From Liolophura sinensis (taxonomy: Eukaryota; Mollusca; Polyplacophora; Chitonida; Chitonidae): a DNA stretch of 64,000 nt. Of this stretch, positions 27,893 to 63,614 are shown in pieces. A model generated the notes under the pieces. The model was not told the DNA's origin. It was given only the letters and a program-made list of their open reading frames with translations, and ran no database searches. Location of the stretch: the NCBI RefSeq assembly GCF_032854445.1, contig NC_088303.1:31131501-31195500 (forward strand), in the 5' to 3' direction. Every line of letters begins with the position of its first letter. Position 1 is the first letter of the stretch. Both the position numbers and the translations under genes were made by a program.

Positions 27893-29518
27893 ACCCAGAA
27901 AGCAGTACATTTATGACAGTTATGGAGTGATTGTTAATTCAGTATGAGTTTTCTTGAGTCATCTCCAAAAAGGACATACACCAGTTTTACCTTCATTTCT
28001 CAAAATTGGCAAGTTGTGTGATCTTGTTGGCTTATTGTTGACATGTATAATGAACGGAGAATTCTAAACCAACATGTAATCACACTATCCGTGGGCCCAT
28101 TCCATTCACTACCCGGTGGCCACTGGAGGACTGGAGTGACCAGTGACATGTTATTCCATTGGCCACTGCAGGAGGCCAGTATCGCCACTGCCGCCACCCA
28201 GCCTGACTTCGGTGGAGTCGTTGGCATGTAGTTTCACGTGATATGATGCGACTTGCGGAACATTGGGACGTCACACTGTATCCTCTGGGTAACCACTGAA
28301 TCTGCCACCAGTGGCTGTCAGATCGAAGAATGGAACGCGCCCCATGTACTCTGAACGTTTCACACTCGTTAAGAGCTGTGTCAGATACCTGTGATGGCCG
28401 GGTGGTAAATATGTTTTTCTCACAGTCACTGCGCCACTAGGAGCTGGTTCAGTCCCACCCTCAGACATAGCATTGTCTAGATTCCCCAACCCCGAGGGTA
28501 TTGTGGACCTAGGTTACAATATGAAGAACTCAATTGCACCCAATAGGCTTTATGTGGTCTTGCAGGATGTTTGCATTCCACAAATATCAAGTACACTTTG
28601 CAGTGAAAATATCTGTCACGTGCAGGAAAAAGGTAAGGAATGTTTCATGATAGAAGCGGGTGTTCATTCAGCTTCCTCCAACCAGGAATTAGTTTGTGTT
28701 CCACTGATGCAGGAAAGCTAATATATATGTTGGTTGTTGTATTAAAAATGCAGACACTGCTGGTTCACAAACGGTAAAATGACAGCATACAACTCTTATA
28801 CCACAGTGAATAATTCAAGAGCACGATACACAGCAATTTAAATTAACAAATAAATACAAAAACCTAAGTTGCAAAACACCTGCAAAGTTCAGCCAGCTCT
28901 TGTAAGCCAAAACGATAAAAATTAATTTTCCATAAAAACCATACTAGGTATAAGACCTGTGACCAAATTAAGAGATCAAGTACAAAGCTAGACGTCAATA
29001 CTGGAATATCTGCAAAAAGCAGGCTCACAAACAATTTAATTTCTTTTGTGTGTGCATTGTACCTCTATGCAAAATTTTTCACATCTCTTTTCTAAAAACA
29101 GTTACAAGTACATACATTTAAGCAGTGATAAGTCTTCCATAACGTGATGAAAACTTTAATTTTCAGATGTTGGCATTTTTGGGTAATTATTTCTCATTCT
29201 GTACAAAAATAAATGTGCATTAAGTCTTTGATGACCCTAACCCGGGTCTCCAAACTCAAAATTCAACGAGGATGCTGGAACCATTAGGCGACAGAAGCAG
29301 TCTCATAGTTACAAGAAGACATTGATTTGAAGTGTCCGAATGTTTTCGTCTCCCCACCCACCCAGTTAACCATGCCTTCAATTACTTTTCAACCTCTCTT
29401 CATCTTGCATGAACACAATCTGTATTTTGATGGTTGGACATGTCAAAGGGTGTGATTCTCCTCAGCACTGTTTATCACTGTAAGTTGTGTCATAGTTTCT
29501 GAATCGTTCAATAACCTG
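27893..29518. other. Intergenic or NUP93 3' UTR, nothing named
   Basis: A comparatively GC-rich island at about 28000-28500 carries overlapping open frames of 60-82 codons on both strands. I recognise none of them and none has splice context. The stretch may be a decayed coding fragment or part of the NUP93 3' UTR. From 28740 to 29400 the DNA is AT-rich with no features. Confidence 0.4.
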
Positions 29519-29684
29519 GACTCCGGCCGTAAGTGGGAAGGTCTGCCAGCAACCTGCGGATGGTCGTGGGTTTCCCCCGGGCTCTGCCCGGTTTCCACCC
29601 ACCATAATGCTGGCCGCCGTCGTATAAGTGAAATATTCTTGAGTACGGCGTAAAACACCAATCAGAAAAAAAAAAAAAAAAAAA
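29519..29684 (+). mobile_element. SINE-A copy, 5'-truncated, poly-A tail
   Basis: Starts inside the body (ACTCCGGCCGTAAGTGGGAA) and runs to a near-perfect tail GAGTACGGCGTAAAACACCA then ATCAG. It ends in about 20 A and not in the usual (AAATA)n. The close match to consensus makes it one of the younger copies. Confidence 0.92.
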
Positions 29685-29865
29685 ATAACCTGGACCTCTG
29701 TCTATACCAGGCTAGTCTTCGTATCACTAGATACCTGAGCACATAGGGAGATTTATGCACAATGGTTCACAAGGACTTGTAGCACCCTCTGACATGTCCA
29801 ACCATCAAACCAGTCTAACTTTGTTATCATTTCCAGATGTGCTTCCCACAATCATTCAGTTTATG

Positions 29866-30950
29866 AGTTCATGAGGACTTCAATCTGAACCAGTCTAGCA
29901 TTGGTATCCCCTGATGAAAATTCCTACACACATCAGCTCATGAGGACTTCAATCTGTACCAGTCTAGCATTGGTATCCCCTGATGAAAATTCCCACACAC
30001 ATCAGTTCACGATGACTTCAATCTGTACCAGTCTAGCACATATATCCCCTGATGAAAATTCCTAAACACATCAGTTCACAATGACTTCAATCTGTACCAG
30101 TCTAGCATTGGTATACCCCGATGAAAATTCCCACACACATCAGTTCATGAGGACTTCAATCTGTACCAGTCTAGCATTGGTATCACCTGATGAAAATTCC
30201 TACACACATCAGTTCATGAGGACTTCAATCTGTACCAGTCTAGCATTGGTATCCCCTGATGAAAATTCCCATACACATAAGTTCACAATGCCTTCAATCT
30301 GTACCAGTCTAGCATTGGTATTCCCTGATGAAAATTCCCATACACATAAGCTCACGATGACTTCAATCTGTACCAGTCTAGCATTGGTATCCCCTGAAGA
30401 AAATTCCCACACACATCAGTTCACGATGACTTCAATCTGTACCAGTCTAGCATTGGTATCCCCTGAAGAAAATTCCCACACACATCAGTTCACGATGACT
30501 TCAATCTGTAACAGTCTAGCATTGGTATCCCCTGATGAAAATTCCACACACATCAGTTCATGAGGACTTCAATCTGAACCAGTCTAGCATTTGTATCACC
30601 CGATGAAAATTCCCATACACATCAGTTCACGATGACTTCAATCTGTACCAGTCTAGCATTGGTATCTCCTGATGAAAATTCCCACACACATCAGCTCATG
30701 AGGACTTCAATCTGTACCAGTCTAGCATTGGTATCCCCTGATGAAAATTCCCACACACATCAGTTCATGAGGACTTCGATCTGTACCAGTCTAGCATTGG
30801 TATCCCCTGATGAAAATTCCACACACATCAGTTCATGAGGACTTCAATCTGTACCAGTCTAGCATTGGTATCCCCTGATGAAAATTCCCACACACATCAG
30901 TTCATGAGGACTTCGATCTGTACCAGTCTAGCATTGGTATCCCCAGGCAT
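29866..30950 (-). repeat. 69-bp minisatellite made from the NUP93 last exon, 16 units
   Basis: The word TCTAGCATTGG (or close variants) recurs 16 times from 29894 to 30927 with spacing 69 (twice 68). On the minus strand each unit reads [11 protein letters not shown] followed by V-L-M-N or a variant, a stop (TGA in most), then 21 bases ending AATTTTCATCAG. The rightmost unit is the true 3' end of NUP93. The other fifteen are downstream copies, in what should be the 3' UTR. Units decay further left, to about 29690. In two units the TGA is altered and the frame runs on (30209-30412). Since 69 is a multiple of three, long plus-strand ORFs also appear (30081-30563), and these are not genes. Confidence 0.95.
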
Positions 30951-31016
30951 CCGGTACGGTAGCATCCCAGTAAACATGATCAACGCCCGAGCCTGACTCC
31001 TCAGATAGTTTAGGTA
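30897..31016 (-). CDS. NUP93: NUP93 terminal coding exon (exon 23)
   Basis: Follows an acceptor ATTAACAG preceded by a long T tract. It encodes the last 39 residues, including [20 protein letters not shown] and then [15 protein letters not shown], with the stop at 30897-30899. The end matches the human C-terminus [16 protein letters not shown] almost residue for residue. Its last 48 bases are the parent unit of the adjoining 69-bp array. Exon 22 ends in phase 0, so this exon starts on a codon boundary. Confidence 0.95.
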
Positions 31017-34000
31017 CTGTTAATAAAAAAAAAAACTTCCTGTGAGTTATTAAATTCACATCTACAAATTACTATTCATCAATTACATTAACACACATTC
31101 TTCTAAATTATTATGCTGCACCCAAGACTAAAATGTCTCTTTTTCTTTTTCACAGGGACTACCACACTTTTTAAGGTAAGCACATGAGGTAAGAAACAAC
31201 TAATACAGCTGTGGACCCAGATTCACAAAGATGTCGTACAAGTACGATAATCGCACATATAGGACAATGGTACAGTAATAGTGATGTACAAAATATTATA
31301 CAACAAATATATGATAAAAAATGTCATACGCCACTTTGTGAAACTGGGCCTAGGTTTCTTACTGTTGATCAAACTGACATGAGAGCAAAGATATTTCATG
31401 GTTGAAGCAAAACGTTTCACGTTTAAAGCCGTAAATTTCAGCAAATTTCAGTTTTACAAGTTTAAGATTACAATGATACAGTAGTCTGTCGACTCTTTAC
31501 CAGTCAGCTTACTTGCTGGAATCTAGTACTCTCCGGTAAGAAAGCCATTGTGTCAGGAACCTGGAGAGGATGATGGTTTTCCCTGAGCTCTATTAAGTTT
31601 TCACCAATAATAAACCTATCTTATTTATTCATTTATTTATTTATTTATTTATTAGGCCAAATTTCAATGGAGCAGCCCTTTCAGCGTTAAATTAAATGCT
31701 ATTATATGAAACCCCTGAATAAGTTCCAGAGTAAGGCATATTTCAGAATTCAAAACAAAAGACTCAAGGATATCTGAACAAGGGTATCGGAAGAAGAGAC
31801 CTAATGACACACACCTTCCAATGAAAGATCCAGGCAAAATAGAAGTTTGCATGAAACACACTGCTGAATTTGATGACTCTGGCCTCCATGGCCCGAGAAT
31901 AGTTTGCATTAACTAGCAAGTATACTTGTTTTGATTTCTGTCTTACCGTTTCTTTTCCGCCATCTGCTGCACCAAATAGTCTGCCCCCTGGACTCTGTAA
32001 AGACGTGTTTCTGAAAAAAAAAATATTGGTGTACATGCTTTTCTATTTCCAACATTACAGGTCCGTTTATAGGATCCCCTAACACAATTGCTAAAACTTG
32101 TTAAGGCAATCCCCTAACTTTTATAAGATTACTAAAACCTGTTAAGGCAATCCCCTTACTTTTATAGGATTGCTAAAACCTGCTGAGGCAATCCCCTAAC
32201 TTTTATAGGATTGCTAAAACTTGTTATGGCAATCTCTTAACTTTTATAGGTTTGCTAAAGCCTGTTAAGGCAATCCCCTTACTTTTATAGGATTGCTAAA
32301 ACCTGCTGAGGCAATCCCCTAACTTTTATAGGATTGCTAAAACAGGTTATGGCAACCCCCTAACTTTTATAGGATTGCTATAACATGTTACCACAATCCC
32401 CTAACTTTTATAGGATTGCTATAACATGTTAGGGCAATCTCCTAACTTTTATAGGATTGCTAAAACCTGTTAAGTCAACCCCCTAACTTTTATAGGATTG
32501 CTAAAACCTGATATGGCAACCCCCTAACTTTTATAGGATTGCTAAAACTTGTTAAGGCAACCCCCTAACTTTTATAAGATTGCTAAAACCTGTTAAGGCA
32601 ACCCCCTAACTTTTATAGGATTGCTAAAACCTGTTAAGGTAACCCCCCAACTTTTATAAGATTGCTAAAACCTGTTAAGGTAATCCCCCAACTTTTACAG
32701 GATTGCTAAAACCTGTTAAGGCAATCCCCTAACTTTTATAAGATTGCTAAAACCTGTCACGGCAATCCCCTAACTTTTATAGGATTGCTAAAACCTGTTA
32801 AGGTAATCCCCCAACTTTTATAGGATTGCTAAAACCTGTCAAGGGAATCCTCTAACTTTTATAGGATTACTAAAACCTGTCGAGGCAACCCCCTAACTTT
32901 TATAGGATTGCTATACCATTTTGAGGTGGACCATTACATAAACATACATGAATATGCCCATTCAATACCTACAGTTACTGATTATTGTAATCAATGGTGG
33001 ATACTGCTTTCTGCTTTGAAGCACACATCTTGCACAATTGTATGTGGTTAAGCTGCTGTTGAAAGAATACCCCCAAATAAAGTAAATCATCAATGGAAAC
33101 AAAACAGATTTTATTGATTTCTCTCTGTGTTTTAATGTTGAAATAGCTCTTTTTTGTGCATGGGTAGACATTAGGCTATTGAACATCAAGATAATTTTTT
33201 ACAAAAGTAAAAATAAAAAAAAAAATTATCTCATTTTCACATCATAAAAGTATTTAACTGCATTTCATTCTGTTAAAAATACATATAAAATATGTAGGCA
33301 GTTATAAATATTGGTTCTTTCCAATAACATTTTACCAACTTTAGGTTATTCTTTTACATTAAAGCTTCTACTTACTTGGCATTCTTGTATTTATTGAGGA
33401 CGATATTCATGGTGGCCAGCAGAATGTCAGGTAAACACTTCCTCACCTGTCAGCACAATGTACACACGCACAAAATGTATATTTAAGTTTTACTTGCTTC
33501 AGCTTCTCTTTCACTTTCAAAATTACATTGTCATTGCACGCCTTGAAACAGCTCTGCGTACCTGTTAACCTATGCCACATCTCACACATCAATATCATGT
33601 TGTTTGTCCTTGATCACTGTTTTTATATTCTCTAACTAAAAACATTTCCATGTGAAGAAAAGTTTACATTTCCCCATATACAAGTAACTACCCTTAACTA
33701 AAATTTAACATTTTCACATGATTCTGACTAAACACAGATTCGGATGTTTTCAACATATTAAAAACTTGCTTTCATGGCTTTTCGATAAAGAGTCATTTTC
33801 ATTTCTTGAACTGGCTCCCCAATGAATTATGAGTGATTGGTGTATAAACAATATGCTCAAGAACTTTCTCTCACATGTATATAGGACAGTTGTACAATTT
33901 CTAGGTGGAGTAAACCACCAACCTCTGGCAAGTTACTGACAAACTTTTTGACAGTTCTCAAGACATTGTCCTCCAGGAAATCTGATATTCTTCAGACAAC

Positions 34001-37000
34001 ATACAGGTAGTGTAGCAATTTGATATCCTGAAGTAACAGAATATCCTTTAGGTATCCTGTGGTATTCTTAAACAGCACAGTATTCTTAAAGCAACATGAT
34101 TTCCTCAAGGACATTTAGTATCCTTAAGCAACGCAATATTTTCAAGGCAACATGGTATCCTCACGCAATGTTCACTGTATCCTCAAGGCCAGGCCCTATC
34201 CCTAAACCACAAGATACCCTGAAGGCAACAAAAAATCCTTCAGGCAACATGAAATTCTTTACGGCAACATGAAGCACTCAAGGCAACATAATATCTTCTC
34301 TGTACAAATAGAGGGTTACTAGCAAAAGTACCTCTAGTAATCGCCTTACCTCAACAGTGTAATGTTTGAAGTCATTAACCTTCCCTTCCACCAGGTCTGT
34401 AGTGAGGGGAAGAAGCTTTAGTTCCTGCATCACCTGTAACACGCAGACAGACAGACAGATTTATTTATTTATTTATTTGATTGGTGTCAAGAATATGTCA
34501 CATACATGACAATAACCAGCATTATTGTGGTAGGAAACTGGGCGGAGTCCTTGAGATAACCCACAAACATTCGAAGGTTGGAAGACCGTTCCATGTAGGG
34601 AAGGAGAGGAAGCCAGCATTAGCGTATTTTCATCCATGCAGATGAGAACAACTGAATACCAAAGTAATCTAATAGCACAATTTGAAAGCAGTACATACAT
34701 GTACATGCATATTCACACATTTGTGAGTGAGTGAGTGCTTGGGGTTTAATGTCATACTTAACAATTTTTCAGTCATATGACTACGAAGGAATCCTTAGAG
34801 TGCATGTAATGTGCCTCCTTCTTGAAGGACGGATATCACCACTCTTTTATATAGTGCTGCTTCACTGAGACGTCTTACCGAAGTCAAGTAAGGGGTAATT
34901 AATTAATATATGCACTGCATTTGAATTATGGTTCCAAAAGGGTGACAATTCAGGATAGCTATTCATACACAAAATAACGTTTCCAGATAACTGAAATATC
35001 ACAAAAACCCTGAGATTTGAGTTCACATATACATGACTTGAAATAGGTCATCATCAAGAGAACAATGTAAATAGAAAAAGTTGATTATTTGTTTTAAGAA
35101 GTTAAAAATGGAGAAGAATTTTACCTCGATTGCTTGATCATAATTTCCCGAATTGTACAGGTCAAAAAAGGTCACTAAGTCAAGGAGGAGATAGAAGGTT
35201 ACACTGTTGCTTTGGTTACCATCGTGCCCAGTAGCTCTGTATCTGTTCAAATATAACAAAATGACTTCTAATATGATGATGATAACATGTAGTAAAGTTT
35301 TCTGACAATTCAAACTTCAACAAAGGGCATCAATGAGGTGGTCATCTTCTGTCTAAAACTCTCTCTACCCTATTAACAAGGCATGTTTACCATTGTTGAA
35401 TATCCACTGAACATATGTACACCTCCCTGGGTTTTAACGTTACACTTAACATTTTTTCAGTCACATGATGACAAAGATTCATTAGCTGTGTGTACATATA
35501 CTGGGCTGTTTTCTGGCAGGGCGAGTCCATGCTGCCTCCAGTGAACTATCATGCAGAAGACACCAGACATGACAACCCACACAGTCACATTATACTGACA
35601 CCAGGCCTACCAGTCCTGTCTCCTTGCTTTAACATCTCCATTTTTAAAAAACTTTAAAAGATTCATTAGCTGTGTGTACATATACTGGGCCGTTTTCTGG
35701 CAGGGCGAGTCCATGCTGCCTCCAGTGAACTATCATGCAGAAAACACCAGACATGACAACCCACACAGTCACATTATACTGACACCAGGCCTACCAGTCC
35801 TGTCTCCTTGCTTTAACATCTCCATTTTTAAAAAACTTTAAAAGATTCATTAGCTGTGTGTACATATACTGGGCCGTTTTCTGGCAGGGCGAGTCCATGC
35901 TGCCTCCAGTGAACTATCATGCAGAAGACACCAGACATGACAACCCACACAGTCACATTATACTGACACCAGGCCTACCAGTCCTGTCTCCTTGCTTTAA
36001 CATCTCCATTTTTAAAAAACATTGGTATGACCAAACCTAGGTTTGATCCCAGAGCTCCTGACTTCGAGGTGGACAATCTAAATACCAGGCCACTGAAGCG
36101 TTTGCTACCAGACAATCTGCTTGACCTAAAGGCAAAGCGGAAACAGCAATAGCTTGATTCAAACCAAGCTCATTGGTCATGGGCCTGATAGTCGTAATAA
36201 GCCACTGCTTTTATCATTCGAGCCAGCGTGGCCCCATACATCAACCCTACTTCAAAGTCCTATCCTGAGCTCTTTGACCACTGGTGCGTTTAGCTGCGAC
36301 TGTTTAGAGGTTTTATACCCGTACCTTTGTGCCACACTGACAGCCAGGTTCTTCACTCGGTCTCTTGAGGATTGGGCGGAGCTTGGCTGGGAGACCACCT
36401 GGCCTAACAGCTTGTTCAACAACTCCAACACCTTGTCATGTTTCTGCAAAACAAGCCGGATAAAGTCTCACTGCCACTTTAAATACATGTTACAAGAGCC
36501 TTCTTTTGAATTTATTTATTTATTTTATTAGTATTTTACTTAAGAAAATTTCACTTATACCATGGCAGCCAGCATTATGATGGGAGGAAACAATGAAGAG
36601 CCCGAGAGGAAACCCACGACAATCCGCAGGCTGCTGGAAGACACCTTCTTTTACACACAACATTTCTAAATGTCTGCAGTTTTGTTGTGTTTCTCCTTAA
36701 AAAGACATTAACTTTTGTCTAAAAGTGAAATAATTTATTTTCTATTCATTTAGACTGTTAACAAAATCAATACAGTTTCATGAGCAGGGGATAACTGTAA
36801 TAAACCGCTCAATCTTAAAGAGGTGGCAAAAACCCGTGGTAACGGCACAGAAGAGTACTTAACCCAATTCTCTCTATAAAAGCTATTCTGGAAGTACTAT
36901 ATGTCCCCTACCCCATTGAGCTGTTGGAATAATACTGATGTCGAACCTACAGTAGTACTGTCAGGGGATGTTTTTTGTGTGTAATATAGAGACATACTTG

Positions 37001-40000: not shown

Positions 40001-43000
40001 GCCTCGAACTTCCGAGTGTACATCATGATAAGTCGGGCGATATTCAAACGTCGGAGGGGATCGGGATCACTAGAGTCTTTGCTCACTGAGAAATCAATAC
40101 AATATGGAGAAAAAAACCTCAAAAATGAGTCACAAACAACAGAGACACTACACATTTTTTTTTTCTTTTTCAAATATAAAGCAAGTTTTGTGGCATGTGG
40201 GACAAAAACAGTCGTGAAAAGTACATTCTGCGATGTTCATCCTTCAAACACAAATGTAAATAAATCATGCCACAGTCTTTTAATTTTACGGAGGTAATAC
40301 TCCGTAGAATAAAATTCAACATGTGTAACCGAATATTTATGCTATTAAAGAAAACAATGATCTAGATTATACAACCTCTTCATGCACAGCAGTATTAAAG
40401 CTGCAGCCACAAAACCCTGTGCATGTATGTAAAATATAACACTTTTACCACAGGAAAGATAGGGGTCTGCGGACGTTCAACTTCAACTTACTTTCATGAG
40501 AAATAATCAACCAGGTTATGAGGTAAAATCTACAACTTTATATGTGACCTTATGTGGACCATTTAGAATACCATACCATAAAATATGATTAAAGAAATGG
40601 CTCTAAACACCTGTGAGCCTGACATCCATGGACTTACACATCTGCGCCTGTATTGTGTGGGGGGTGTGGAGGATGTGGAGCTCATGCAGGGCTAGGGCCA
40701 CATGGACAGCGTGGGAGCGGAGCTTCTCAATGCGGGACAGGAACTCCAAGGCAGCCTCAAACTGAGCTGTTAACCAGAGCACCTGGAAGTACAGGTGGGG
40801 CTGGTGGTACGCATTGAAATGGCTCTCACCTGAAACATGCAGAAAGATAAAGGCATGTGTAAAAGTGTACCATTTGTCTGTTAATTATTTCATTGGTCTT
40901 ATGTGCCACATCAGAGACTTTATTCCATGTGTGCCACATGTAGTTAGGTTTGTGTCTGACAGAGACCAAGTAAGACTCAAGAATATTTCACTTATACTGC
41001 AACCACCAGGATTATGGTGGGAGGAAACCGGGCACAGCCCAGGGAATATCCACGACCAACCGCAGACCTTCCCACACTTTACAGTTGTTGAGATACATGT
41101 AGCAGAAGACACTGCTGAAGTGCAAAAGTGACAAAATTTTCAATAGGTTGCTTTCTCTAACTTGTGAAATCTCCCATCATGCCCCACACAGCATTAAATG
41201 CATAGACTGGGCCACAGAGAAGAACAATGAGGCTAAAGAACACAAAAATAACAACCTACTCAACAGACTTGAAGGCCAGAGGATAACAAACAATGATCTA
41301 AATTATTTTTTATTTAATTTATTGCTATCTTATGCTGTACTCAAGAATATTTTCACTTTTTTTATGGTGGCCAGCATCATGGTGGGAGGAAAGCCATGAC
41401 CATAAACAGGTTGCTGCCAGGCCATTCCCCTGCACTACCAAGCCGGTACCTAGGCCACGGAGGTCCAAATGATATAAAATTACCGTAGTCCTCATAAAGT
41501 ATAGACTGTAGTCGCTGTAAGGTGAAGGTCTCTGACCCCATGTCATTCGTCTCTGGATGGATGTGGCAAAGTTTCACCCATAGGTAGTCGTCAATCTTGT
41601 CAGCGACTTCTGTGTGGTCCTCGCTGAAGTCACACTGTCCAATCACGCAGTACACAGCCCTGTAAACACACAAACACACCAGGAGTCAAAACACACACTT
41701 TAGTAAGCATCAGTGGTGGGTTGTTTTTTTTTTTTTTAAGTCACCTTTAGAAAAGATCAGAGATATTCTTGACATGTTACTTTTTAAGGTCACTAATGTT
41801 TCTGAGGGATGTTTTCACTAATGGTAATGGTCGTTAGACATTTCTGTTGGATGAAAAATGTTGTAAGGATCACTGCTCATTTAGACAGAGAATGTTTGAA
41901 AGTTTTCTAAAAATCATTTCTACTTTAACGAGAAATGTATTTTACCTTTTGTTTTAACACTGTCATGTTAGTTGAGGAATATTTTTCTTTTTGTAGGGAT
42001 ATTTGCTCTTTAGGATCAGGACTATTTTTACCTTTTGTAAGCATTACAGATGTGTTTGCTGAGGATTTTTTAACCTTTTGTAAACATCACAGGTGCGTTT
42101 GCCGAGGATTGTTTTTACCTTTTGTAAACATCACGGGTGCGTTTGCCGAGGATTGTTTTCACCTTTTGTAAACATCATGGGTGTGTTTGCTGAGGATTGT
42201 TTTTACCTTTTGTAAACACAACAGGTGTGTTTGCCAAGGATTGTTTTTACCTTTTGTAAACACAACAGGTGCGTTTGCCGAGGATTGTTTTTACCTTCCA
42301 TAAGCATCACAGGTGTGTTTGCTGAGGATTGTTTTTACCTTCAGTAAACATCACAGGTGTGTTTGCTGACGATTGTTTTTACCTTCTGTAAGCATTACAG
42401 ATGTGTTTGCCGAGGATTGTTTTAATCTTTTGTAAACGTCACAGGTGCGTTTGCCGAGGATTGTTTTTACCTTCTGTAAGCATTACAGATGTGTTTGCTG
42501 AGGATTGTTTTTACCTTCTGTAAGCATTACAGATGTGTTTGCTGAGGATTGTTTTTACCTTCTGTAAGCATTACAGATGTGTTTGCCAAGGATTGTTTTT
42601 ACCTTCTGTAAGCATTACAGATGTGTTTGCCGAGGATTGTTTTTACCTTCTGTAAGCATTACAGATGTGTTTGCCGAGGATTGTTTTAATCTTTTGTAAA
42701 CACAACAGGTGCGTTTGCCGAGGATTGTTTTTACCTTTTGTAAGCATCACAGGTGCATTTGCTGAGGATTGTTTTTACCTTTTGTAAGCATAACAGGTGC
42801 ATTTGCTGAGGATTGTTTTTACCTTCCGTAAGCATCACAGGTGTGTTTGCTGAGGATTGTTTTTACCTTTTGTAAGCATTACAGATGTGTTTGCCGAGGA
42901 TTGTTTTTACCTTTTGTAAACATCACAGGTGCATTTGCTGAGGATTGTTTTTACCTTCCGTAAGCATCACAGGTGTGTTTGCTGAGGATTGTTTTTACCT

Positions 43001-45966
43001 TTTGTAAGCATCACAGGTGTGTTTGCTGAGGATTGTTTTTACCTCTTGTAAACATCACAGGTGTGTTTGCTGAGGACTGTTTTTACCTTCCGTAAGCATC
43101 ACAGGTGCGTTTGCTGAGGATTGTTTTTACCTTCTGTAAGCATTACAGATGTGTTTGCTGAGGATTGTTTTTACCTTTTGTAAGCATCACCACTGTCTTT
43201 GCTCAGGGCTGTTGTTACTTGTTGTAAGAATCAGTTCAGTGTTTTATGAGGAAGGCCTTTACCCTTTGTAAGAACCACTGACATGTTTCTGGGGGAATAT
43301 ATATTACCTTTTGTAAGGATCACTGCTGTTTTTGATCGCTCTTCTGTACTGTAACCTGATCATTGTTTCATTACTAGGGCTCAATCTGAAACATAAAAAA
43401 CATAAAGGCTACAGGGTGTGTGTCAAAACTTTACATTACCCGCCTGGGAATAACTATCTTAATAATACATCATACATAAATCTCTGCAGATAATTTCTCA
43501 ACAACATAAAATCCTTATTCTTTCCGCTGATTTCAAAATACAATCACTGTCAAATATGACAACTAAGATTCCAATGTTTGTCACAGTCTCCAACAAAGGC
43601 AGGTTTACAACACTTTCCTGTACTTAATCAAATTTGAAAATTTTCCATGTAATCTGAAAATCTTAAAGGCTAACAGAGTAATATGTATATTGAAAACAGG
43701 CACATGTTTACTCACCTATGTCCTTCATAGCTGCTATATTCTTGAAGAAAATTCGGGAAGTGTTCTCCAAGATTGTGTCTGAAAAAGCCAACAGTCAAAC
43801 AGGAAATTTCAAAATTTAATGCTTATTTGTCTTTTTTTATCAAGTACAATATAAACCCAACCTCAATTGCATGCAAATCTCCATGCAGCAATCTAAATCA
43901 GAAGTAAGAGTATCACTGAAGCACTAAACTCTTCTCCAAATATCTGTCTATTACCATGTCTTACAGCTCTTCAAATCTTAGCACTAAATTATATCTATTT
44001 CTGGCTAAGTAGGCCTCCGTGGCCTAGTGGTTAGCTCATGCTGGCTTCCTCTCCTGTCATATGTATAAGGTCTGTCAGCAACCTGCAGATGGTGGTGGGT
44101 TTCCCCAGTTTCCTCCTAGGGCTGGCTGCCGATGAATGAAGTGAAATATTCTTGAGTATGCTGTAAAACACCATTCAAATAAACAAAAATCTTTAGCTAA
44201 GGATTATCTACCCTTAACCCTTCTCGCTAAATAAAAACTATAAAAGCTTATTGATGACTTACGGGGCTTTGTCAACAACCTGTTGAGCGGCTTTAAGGTC
44301 TCCACAGCGTAAGCAGTAATACAGCATGGCCCACACAGGATGTCCTTCAACTGTACCATCCTAGAACAACAACAACAAGCACTGCTTTAGCAACCATACA
44401 AATCAATGGGACACCAGAAAAAGTCTGAAGTGGCACGTATTATATCATTTCAGTGATGCTGCACATTCCACTGCAGCGTCAACAGTGAGACGTCACAGTG
44501 GGTGGACCAATTATGTCACAGATGAAACCGCAGCATGCAACATGTTTGGGATCACACAACAAAAGACTTGTGACATGCAAGACCTAATTCACACCACCGC
44601 TACTTTTTGTGAGAGGAAAATTTGCTGATACCCCATGTACATTTGTTGGTTTGCTTCCTTCTTAGACTAGACTGTGGATAAATCTTGATTCAGTATACGT
44701 TACATCAGTCACATCATAATTGCTGGCTGTCACTGCTTCCTGACAAGACTAACCTATGCTAAATCACCTGGAGTCAGGATATTCATGTGTGCATGGGTTT
44801 TATCATTGTTCTTATCATTATTATAAACAATTTTTATGATTGAGTCCACAGCATTCTGTGTCTTGCTGTGACATTACACTGACACCGGGCCAACAAGTCC
44901 TGATTCCTTGCTTTAACCTAACAGTGCTGAGTGCTAAACAAGGCACCAACAAGAACCATTTTTCGGCATGACCTGACCCAGTTGATCACGTCTCCCGACT
45001 TTGAAGCGGACACTCTAGCCACAAGGCCACAAGGCCACAAGGAGTAAGTCTGGAAGTGCTGCTTCAAACATTTTGACTACGGTTAAAAATGTCTTTATCA
45101 ATAATGAACTACATGTATATGATGTCAGGTGCATGTTTCAAGTGATTTGTAAAAAAAAGAAGTCCCATGAAATAAAGCGCCACTGCATCCTGACACCAGG
45201 CCAACCAGTACATCGCCTATTCTACCACAAATAGTACAAAGGTCTTTCGACAGTCTCGGACGTGACTAAACTCAGGATTTATCACTGCAGTCTGAATAAT
45301 GCTCTAACCAGTAAGGCCAAATATATTCAAGACCTATTTGAACCAAATATCCTTTGGTTTTTTCAGGTAAATTCAGTTAATTCTTATATGTATGTTTGAG
45401 TTTCTAAGAGTATACATGTAAATATACTCAATTCTTTTAATGTCTTTAAATAATATATTATATATTATTTTAATAAGTGCTGATGGAATGACTGAAAACT
45501 TGCAAAAATGAAAATGTGCTAATACGGTGTAGCATCAAGCTTGGAAATATTTATTTATTTATTTGATTGGTGTTTTACGCCGTACTCAAGAGTGTTTCAC
45601 TTATACGACGGCAACCAGCATTATGGTGGGAGGAAACGGGCAGAGCCCTGGGGAAACCCACGACCATCCGCAGAATGCTGGCAGACCTACACACTTATGG
45701 CAGGAGCCTGGAAATAAGCAGCAGGATAAAGGACAATGTCCTGTACCAAATAGTAGTTTGACACGGTTTGGTACAGGACAAAAATGCCATGTAAATAACA
45801 TTGTCTGAAAAACTATTTCCAGACTAGCACACATACCTCAAGACCCCTCAGGTTCATCTGCTTCACATTCAGAAAGCTGCGCACCAAGTGATAGGTGCCT
45901 GGAATCCCGCCCAGCTGTGCTTGTTGCAGGTTGCCATATATGGTCGTGGTGATGTATTTCACATAG
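30897..45966 (-). CDS. NUP93: NUP93 alpha-solenoid, exons 8-23 (residues 267-823)
   Basis: Stacked helices of the ACE1-like nucleoporin fold. Landmarks: [19 protein letters not shown] (exon 8), [18 protein letters not shown] (exon 9), [13 protein letters not shown] and [13 protein letters not shown] (exon 12), [18 protein letters not shown] (exon 13), [18 protein letters not shown] (exon 14), [14 protein letters not shown] (exon 17), [15 protein letters not shown] (exon 19), [12 protein letters not shown] (exon 21). Exon 22 (64 bp) encodes a low-conservation linker ([16 protein letters not shown]), as in other NUP93 proteins. No frame break was seen. Confidence 0.95.
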
Positions 45967-61360: not shown

Positions 61361-63614
61361 ATGACCTCGGTCACGTGGTTTAAGCTGGTGACTGTAGCTG
61401 GGTTGCTCGTGGGGCAGATTCTTTGTAAGCGACAGTACATCGAGATGACCCACGAAATTCACGACCGAGTTGTTACCTACCCAGGCATGCCCAAGTTTAA
61501 CTTCACTAACCTGGAAAGGGGAGACAAACGCGGCTTCTGGTGAGTTCTTGTGTCCCCCAAATATGGAAGATTGATGGATTGATTTGGTTGGTGTCAACGC
61601 CATCTTCCAGAACACTCAAGCCTTTTTCACTTGTATCACAGTGATATGGTTTACGGTTGAATGAGATTTGAAATTTTGACTTAAGTAGAAGATGGGTTCG
61701 TGATTCAGGGGCCAGAGTACTTGACAACTTAAAGTTGCAGCCGAAAATGCCAGAGCTGGATTCGAACTCGTGACCTCATCGGTCAAATTTCTGATAGCAA
61801 GGCTCCGGAACAAACAAATATATGCCGCGTAATAAACGCCATGCATACGTGTGTAGGAAGGATAGAGTGAGCTGACAGTTCATCAGTAGTAACCCCACAG
61901 TACTGCAAATAGAGTAGTCCAGAATGTTTTATGCAAGGATAAACAACATCGGGTGGCCTGCGTAATAACATCGCCTGCCCGGAATGCAAGAGAACCAGTC
62001 TGGAGTCCTCCCTTGTTCAAGCTTAACGAAGAGCATTGAATTTTTTCATTGCTAATATAGTAAAAATGGGTCATCTTCAATTCAAGAATTATGTATCCCC
62101 AAACGCTCGCTTGACTCTATTCTTTATCATCTCCTGCAGCTTGCAGCTTGATATAAAAAAATCACTTTAGACACAGTTTTTTTATGTTGCTGCTGAAAGT
62201 GAAGTAGCATGTTTATTGTGACTTTGGTAACCTCTAGGCAGATGGGTAGAAAGCGTTGGTAAAAAATTTCGGGCATGTGTAACAGACAAAATTTTAATTT
62301 TTTGTAACCAGATTAGAAAATTACAAAACAGAATTAGATAGTGTCCGACAGAAAAATCTCTGTGCCGCTATCATCCAATCAGTGCCACGGCAGCCTTCAA
62401 TTCGTTGTTTAATTCGTTGTTCAATTGCGAATGTGTAAGCTTTAACCTTTGAACCGACGTAGAAGCGGATAAGTGAAGTACATGTGTTCTACGCGAAAGG
62501 GATGGATCGTTACATGTTTATATATGTGGTGTCTTCGCCAAGGCGTGCCACTGAGACAGCACTATAAATATATGGGTCTGCAGTTGAACCGACGTACTAC
62601 GGGGAGATACGGTGGTGACAGGATGACAACAGATGTTAAATTATAAGACAGCAAGCAAAAGATATTCTCAAAATTACGCTTTCGAATTCAGCCGCCTTTG
62701 AAGGAAATAAGCTGTAAGTTTGGAAGTTTTATTCTGAACTAGCATTTGCCTTAGCAATAAATCTGTGTTGGCTAGGAGCTTACTGCTCATTCCTTGCAAA
62801 ATTACGGCGTAAAACATCAATCAAATAAATAAATCATTCCTTCCAACAGAACTCTGTTTAGAATCGCCGCCACTGCAGGCGTGATTGTTTCATATAAAAG
62901 CTGTTGTTTCCTGTTCTGTTCTTCAGGGTAGAGTATAATAAATTCCAGTTGTCCGAGCATGCAGGGACCCACATTGACGCCCCCATACACTTCAATCAGC
63001 ATGGTCGGTACCTACACGAGGTTCCTCTTGACAATCTCGTAGGACCAGGTGTCATTGTAGACATCACTCATCGAGCTAAAAGAGACCGGAGAGCCGAAGT
63101 CAACGTCGAAGACATTCTCCGATGGGAAGACACTCACGGGAAAATCCCTAAAGGATCATTTGTCATCATGAAATCTGGATGGTTTCGGAAGTATCCCGAC
63201 ACGACCCAAATCTTTGGGGTCGACGTTAATCGATTTCCGTCCACGGACTTCCGTTTTCCGGGAATTTCCCCTGCGGCTGCGCAGTGGCTGATTGACCACA
63301 GAGAGATCAATGGCGTTGGAGGCGACACACCTTCCCCAGATCGTGGAGGCGGGTCTCATATGCGAACACACCTAATCATCCTTGGCGCTAACAAAGTGAT
63401 CCTTGAGAACGTTGCGAACTTGGACAAAGTTCCACCGTCTGGTGCTACAATATATGCACTGCCTATAAACTTGCACCGTGGCAGCGGTGGGCCTCTCCGG
63501 ATCTTTGCTACCCTTAATGACGGCGAGGACTTTGACTACAGTGGTTCAGGGCGCTCTCTCCCACTTACTGGAGCAACCCTCTTTTGCGTGTTGTTCGTGA
63601 AATTAATGTACTGA
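61361..63614 (+). CDS. Secreted cyclase-family metal-dependent hydrolase (KynB/isatin hydrolase-like)
   Basis: Two coding exons, 61361-61539 and 62927-63614, joined by a GT-AG intron in phase 2, give 288 aa. Family PF04199 (cyclase; bacterial kynurenine formamidase KynB and isatin hydrolase belong here) is shown by the metal-binding block EHAGTHIDAPIHF (H71, H75, D77, H81). Further support comes from GVGGDTPSPDRG (189-200) and HLIILGANKVILENVANLDK (208-227). Residues 1-22 look like a signal peptide (hydrophobic TVAGLLVGQILC), so the enzyme is probably secreted or lumenal. The C-terminus ends in a hydrophobic stretch after SGSG (LTGATLFCVLFVKLMY), possibly a GPI-anchor signal. The ATG directly follows TTTTTGTCAG, an acceptor, so a 5' UTR exon is likely upstream. 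The true substrate is unknown. Confidence 0.92.
61569..61806 (-). mobile_element. SINE-C: a third tRNA-derived family
   Basis: Minus strand starts CCGGAGCCTTGCTATCAGAA and has a box B-like GAGTTCGAATCC. It contains GACTTAAGTCAAAATTTCAA-like sequence minus one base pair block, and ends GTTGACACCAACCAAATCAA. The end is parallel to the SINE-A tail (GTAAAACACCAATCAAAT) but the body is different. It lies in the intron of the cyclase gene. Confidence 0.6.
62801..62834 (+). mobile_element. SINE-A tail only
   Basis: TTACGGCGTAAAACATCAAT with CAAATAAATAAAT and nothing of the body. It lies in the cyclase intron about 95 bp before exon 2. Confidence 0.8.

Follow-up and report, generated by a model that had tools for sequence, protein, structure and literature searches.

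The 3′ End of NUP93

The window analysed in this study is a stretch of 64,000 nucleotides from the genome of Liolophura sinensis, a species that was published as Liolophura japonica and renamed in a correction (PMC12441733). Two features on its minus strand define the end of a NUP93 gene:

32010-31947, minus strand: NUP93 exon 22, which ends in phase 0 at the donor ACG/GTAAGA.
31016-30897, minus strand: terminal coding exon of NUP93, numbered exon 23 in the original prediction and assigned by its phase-0 join to exon 22 and by the match of its C-terminus to PDB Nup93 chains.

A poly-T/AACAG acceptor precedes exon 23, which runs from 31016, encodes 39 residues, and closes with a TGA whose last base is 30897. 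When joined, exons 21, 22, and 23 gave a continuous NUP93 C-terminal translation, indicating that exon 23 opens in phase 0 and confirming the predicted phase-0 end of exon 22. With an E cutoff of 1, nine distinct PDB sequences matched the NUP93 end, five of them named Nup93 (E-values of 4.5e-13 to 4.9e-11) and four named NIC96 (0.035-0.046). The C-terminal tail of the parent exon (14 residues) was common to the PDB chains named Nup93, and the identity of the gene as NUP93 holds. The genome gave 11 matches to the Nic96/Nup93 family, all of them inside this window, and a genome-wide search, which can miss weak matches, found no NUP93 paralogue.

A 69-bp Tandem Array Spanning the Stop Codon

The end of the gene is repeated in tandem. 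The array consists of the following parts:

30876-30944, minus strand: parent unit U0, 69 bp, containing the last 15 codons of NUP93, the stop codon, and 21 nt beyond it.
29866-30875, minus strand: tandem copies U1-U15, arranged head-to-tail after U0.

Tandem Repeats Finder placed the array at 29866-30944 with a period of 69, 15.7 copies including the parent unit, and 92% matches, in agreement with the predicted 69-bp array of about fifteen downstream copies of the NUP93 end. With head-to-tail units of more than 10 nt, it is a minisatellite. The array begins within the terminal coding exon, whose last 15 codons and stop fall within the parent unit; 14 full copies and a truncated fifteenth come after that unit. 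U1 and U5 are 68 bp long, with a 1-bp deletion each, and the other full copies are 69 bp long. In U15, array-like sequence covers the first 46 bases and has one difference. Copies U1-U15 were found to carry the 15-codon tail in exact or variant form, with a stop in most units, as had been proposed. The exact 15-residue tail with its stop in place was present in 5 of the 15 copies (U1, U2, U5, U10, and U11) and absent from 10. Of the 14 full copies, all but U8 and U9 (12 copies) retained a stop at the parent position; in the truncated U15 the stop falls one codon late. An LM-to-IV variant of the tail occurred in seven copies, five of which read exactly EVIVN.

U0 and U2 are identical, and both have a C that is found in no other copy, which suggests that recently the coding copy U0 either was duplicated or exchanged sequence with the array. 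The number of differences from U0 ranged from 0 to 8 among 14 copies and showed no steady rise with distance. The array mixes two interleaved variant classes, CTCATG and ATCGTG/ATTGTG, and most of its units differ from each other. Since the parent tail is common to the PDB Nup93 chains, the parent would have preceded the copies, and the direction of origin given in the original prediction stands. A genome match search, which skips common repeats and can therefore miss repeats, found no further occurrence of the array: none of the at least 42 other matches listed touches it (40 of 106 candidates were scored). On the plus strand, an open frame of 165 aa (30066-30560) spans the array; such a frame is favoured by the 69-bp (3 × 23) period.

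Decay and a Probable Insertion at the Far End

The coordinates first assigned to the array were correct as given, but the sequence continues past 29866 as a decayed copy, which is followed by a probable insert:

29810-29865, minus strand: decayed array continuation, detected by local alignment to the unit and also belonging to a 20-nt repeat family.
29425-29809, no strand assigned: probable insert with 27-nt inverted ends, proposed from its inverted repeat and its joined flanks.
29522-29683, plus strand: SINE-like dispersed repeat nested in the insert, with limits deduced from the AATAACCTGGAC repeats on either side.

The decayed copy aligned to the 69-bp unit over 59 columns. Its score was reached by 0 of 2000 first-order Markov shuffles under a 2/-3 scheme and by 6 of 2000 under a 1/-1 scheme, and by none of the 371 other minus-strand segments of the window (1/-1). 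The presence of a decayed copy beyond the array implies a greater age than its appearance suggests.

The inverted arms of the insert, at 29426-29452 and 29783-29809, are 27 nt long and 96% complementary. Removal of the insert places CAATCTGTA beside CCAGTCTAAC, in register with the unit, at a joined site that was read without a shuffle control. The insert probably split an old, decayed array copy, and it is this joined register that suggests a continuation of the array to the left of the insert. Taken alone, the left flank was rejected as an array remnant: for 29300-29427, the score was reached under the two schemes by 152 and 167 of 2000 shuffles and by 35 and 43 of the 1940 segments taken from elsewhere in the window, and the shorter segment 29360-29427 was not significant (196 and 260 of 2000 shuffles).

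The insert has no obvious target duplication and carries the nested SINE-like repeat. Each of its two end pieces matched only itself in the genome. The SINE-like repeat is flanked by AATAACCTGGAC at 29510-29521 and 29684-29695 and had at least 42 other genomic matches, all in query bases 1-95, which correspond to window positions 29600-29694.

Origin and Maintenance of the Array

The best explanation, to which we assign a probability of about 0.86, is that the array is a near-neutral minisatellite that spans the NUP93 stop codon, has been homogenised by exchange, and probably lies in the 3′ UTR. The last part follows from the distribution of poly(A) hexamers. None of 11 kinds occurred from the NUP93 stop to the array end (30897-29866), and candidates were found beyond the array (CATAAA at 29865; ATTAAA at 29160 and 29040), so the array is probably part of the NUP93 3′ UTR, which the original prediction had named as its alternative.

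The founding event would have been a tandem duplication of a 69-bp segment across the stop codon. With its upstream context and its stop both retained, the first copy leaves the predicted NUP93 protein unchanged; the further copies would fall in the 3′ UTR or just downstream. Selection against such a duplication should be weak, since the first stop is left in place. Slippage or unequal exchange would then have expanded and homogenised the array with the coding copy still included, as argued by the identity of U0 and U2 and by the C unique to them, and the far end would have decayed meanwhile. Contractions that delete whole units in register should spare the end of the gene, because the tail and stop recur in every intact unit, and this may be the reason why the array is tolerated.

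The same exchange could be given a function. The array might serve as a recombination buffer or donor bank, in which each exchange leaves a complete tail and stop and at times converts the C-terminus (LM to IV, for example), so that the end of an essential nucleoporin would co-evolve with its own 3′ UTR minisatellite; a minor part might also splice via the in-phase TAG/GAA sites. We regard this reading as unlikely.

Sequence Constraint and RNA Structure

It is unlikely that the array is a functional 3′ UTR element, in which repeated binding sites would regulate the level or location of NUP93 mRNA. The hexamer-free interval from the stop to the array end makes transcription of the array probable, and UTR repeats elsewhere can act via RNA-binding proteins (PMC3899988). 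However, no greater conservation was detected in the noncoding part of the unit than in the coding part, with 4 of 21 and 15 of 48 variable columns, respectively (Fisher P 0.39). Three units folded no better than shuffled sequences (z +1.1; 175 of 200 shuffles were at least as stable), and an Rfam search over 28900-31100 gave no match at E up to 1, which also argues against such an element.

U1-U14 contain 17 distinct coding changes, namely, 10 nonsynonymous changes, 6 synonymous changes, and 1 stop loss, in a count that leaves out U15 and gap states and treats a four-base block change in U13 as four. No coding constraint on the copies was detected in this low-power comparison, as 6 of 17 changes were synonymous against an expected 22-27% (binomial P 0.15-0.33).

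Splicing into the Array

The original prediction proposed that exon 22 could be spliced to the array units, which would act as back-up or alternative terminal exons and restore the conserved NUP93 tail in frame. In that proposal, AATTTTCATCAG was placed directly before GGG-GAT-ACC, with its AG in acceptor position. That reading contains one G too many. The unit boundary reads TTTTCATCAGGGGATACC, with four G's after CATCA, the first of which is used by the AG. On the minus strand, CATCAG is followed by GGGATACC, not by GGGGATACC, and GGG ATA CC remains after the AG. Because the AG takes the first of the four G's, the ends spliced at CATCAG are out of frame; phase-0 exon 22 would read on into GGG ATA CCA ATG CTA, which is translated as GIPML... 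and gives a GIPMLDWY-like end. An AG is indeed present at the boundary in 13 of 15 copies, whereas U5 and U12 have CGG in place of CAG. All 13 CATCAG/CTTCAG sites read a GIPML-type end or a variant of it. The C-terminal tail was restored in frame at none of them, and the proposed bank of in-frame terminal exons fails at this acceptor. The 24 residues that the splice was said to drop (785-808 in the earlier numbering) are present, but the splice itself would be off by one base. A phase-1 donor in exon 22 would fit the CATCAG frame; the cryptic donors of this kind were weak, scoring 0.4 and 2.7 compared with 5.9 for the real donor.

Other AGs fit the frame better. The array contains 65 AGs. Counted with the pattern EV(LM or IV)(N or S), which leaves out the U9 site (EGIVN), 17 of them lead in phase 0 to a tail-like end. 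These comprise three TAG/GAA and fourteen CAG/AT sites. At 30199, 30061, and 29923, the TAG/GAA sites read EFSS followed by a tail; only 30199 yields the exact tail with its stop, and the three units concerned carry a G-to-A change. The CAG/AT sites yield no more than roughly the last 6 residues (IEVLMN or variants), and the one at 30367 runs past a lost stop.

Acceptors and donors were compared using ad hoc, untrained scores of the pyrimidine-tract type, modelled on the general shape of the splice consensus. NUP93 exon acceptors scored 6.6-8.8 (n = 12), the CATCAG/CTTCAG sites 4.7-6.8 (n = 13), and the in-phase AGs 3.4-5.5 (n = 17); as this score had itself been used to pick 10 of the 12 exon acceptors, each as the best AG close to a family match, the comparison is tilted in favour of the exon acceptors. 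The remaining two, those of exons 22 and 23, were fixed by reading frame rather than by score, and the exon 23 acceptor was the strongest (8.8). The in-phase AGs in the array are weaker than the acceptors of NUP93 itself on this crude scale. A score at or above that of the common CATCAG site (6.2) was reached by 8.2% of the 3,747 minus-strand AGs in the window.

Several of these observations speak for use of the array as terminal exons: the CAG recurs at the unit boundary in 13 of 15 copies, two boundary sites (CTTCAG, 6.78) outscore the weakest of the NUP93 exon acceptors (6.61), and TAG/GAA stands in phase 0 in three units. Against them stand the out-of-frame ends at all 13 boundary sites, the lower scores of both the boundary and the in-phase sites, and the weak phase-1 donors. 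Rare splicing into array units may occur; as an explanation of the array, alternative terminal exons are very unlikely.

Tandem Arrays in This Genome

That the copies were invented or miscounted by the assembler can practically be dismissed: although the assembly was made from about 14x HiFi coverage, the mean HiFi read of 8,347 bp (both values from PMC11068029) far exceeds the 1.1-kb array, most units are mutually distinct, and two carry a 1-bp deletion.

A near-neutral minisatellite at a stop codon fits a genome in which tandem arrays are abundant. We sampled fifteen 10-kb stretches on twelve contigs, picked by round coordinates. The sample contained 20 arrays of at least 150 bp, which covered 11.9% of the 150,000 bases; 8 of them had at least 10 copies and a length of at least 300 bp. 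Extrapolated to the genome, this corresponds to roughly 32,000 arrays of the latter class, and the genome has 28,010 protein-coding genes, as given in PMC11068029. With random placement and a 69-bp target per gene, rough arithmetic yields on the order of 100 founder units covering a stop codon, a figure that is an expectation and not a count of real cases. Since tandem arrays are so abundant, some are expected to span stop codons by chance.

NUP93 itself has two further arrays in its introns, one at 32087-32913 (41 bp, 20.2 copies) and one at 42018-43233 (44 bp, 27.7 copies). They resemble the 69-bp array in unit size, copy number, and matches (89% and 89% compared with 92%), whereas the 69-bp array starts in the terminal coding exon. 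Another NUP93 intron contains three copies of a 184-bp unit with 99% matches (35473-36020), which suggests a recent triplication. This array was rejected as a copied exon; it sits between the assigned exons 36443-36325 and 35242-35125.

Comparison with Known Systems

The human SLC6A3 3′ VNTR has 9-11 repeats of 40 bp (PMC6559656). Like the NUP93 array, whose placement in the mRNA is only probable, it has units of tens of bp after the stop in the last exon and leaves the protein unaffected. The founder unit of the NUP93 array includes the last codons and the stop. Units that include codons are also found in the coding minisatellites of the cell-surface genes FLO1 and FLO11 (PMC3899988); those repeats are translated, whereas the NUP93 copies come after the stop codon of the parent. 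No minisatellite that includes a stop codon or serves as terminal exons was recognised in the literature searched, a scope that left out most subscription journals.

The array shows that a minisatellite can absorb the stop codon of a gene without cost to the protein. It is an anatomical curiosity with an ordinary explanation, and the proposed new splicing device fails at the acceptor named for it. A constrained coding parent together with many visible copies also provides a test bed for measuring exchange between an exon and a repeat.

Elsewhere in the window, the plus strand contains a 238-aa open frame (62898-63611) with a GTHIDAPIHF stretch, which we take to resemble a cyclase/kynurenine-formamidase-type protein.
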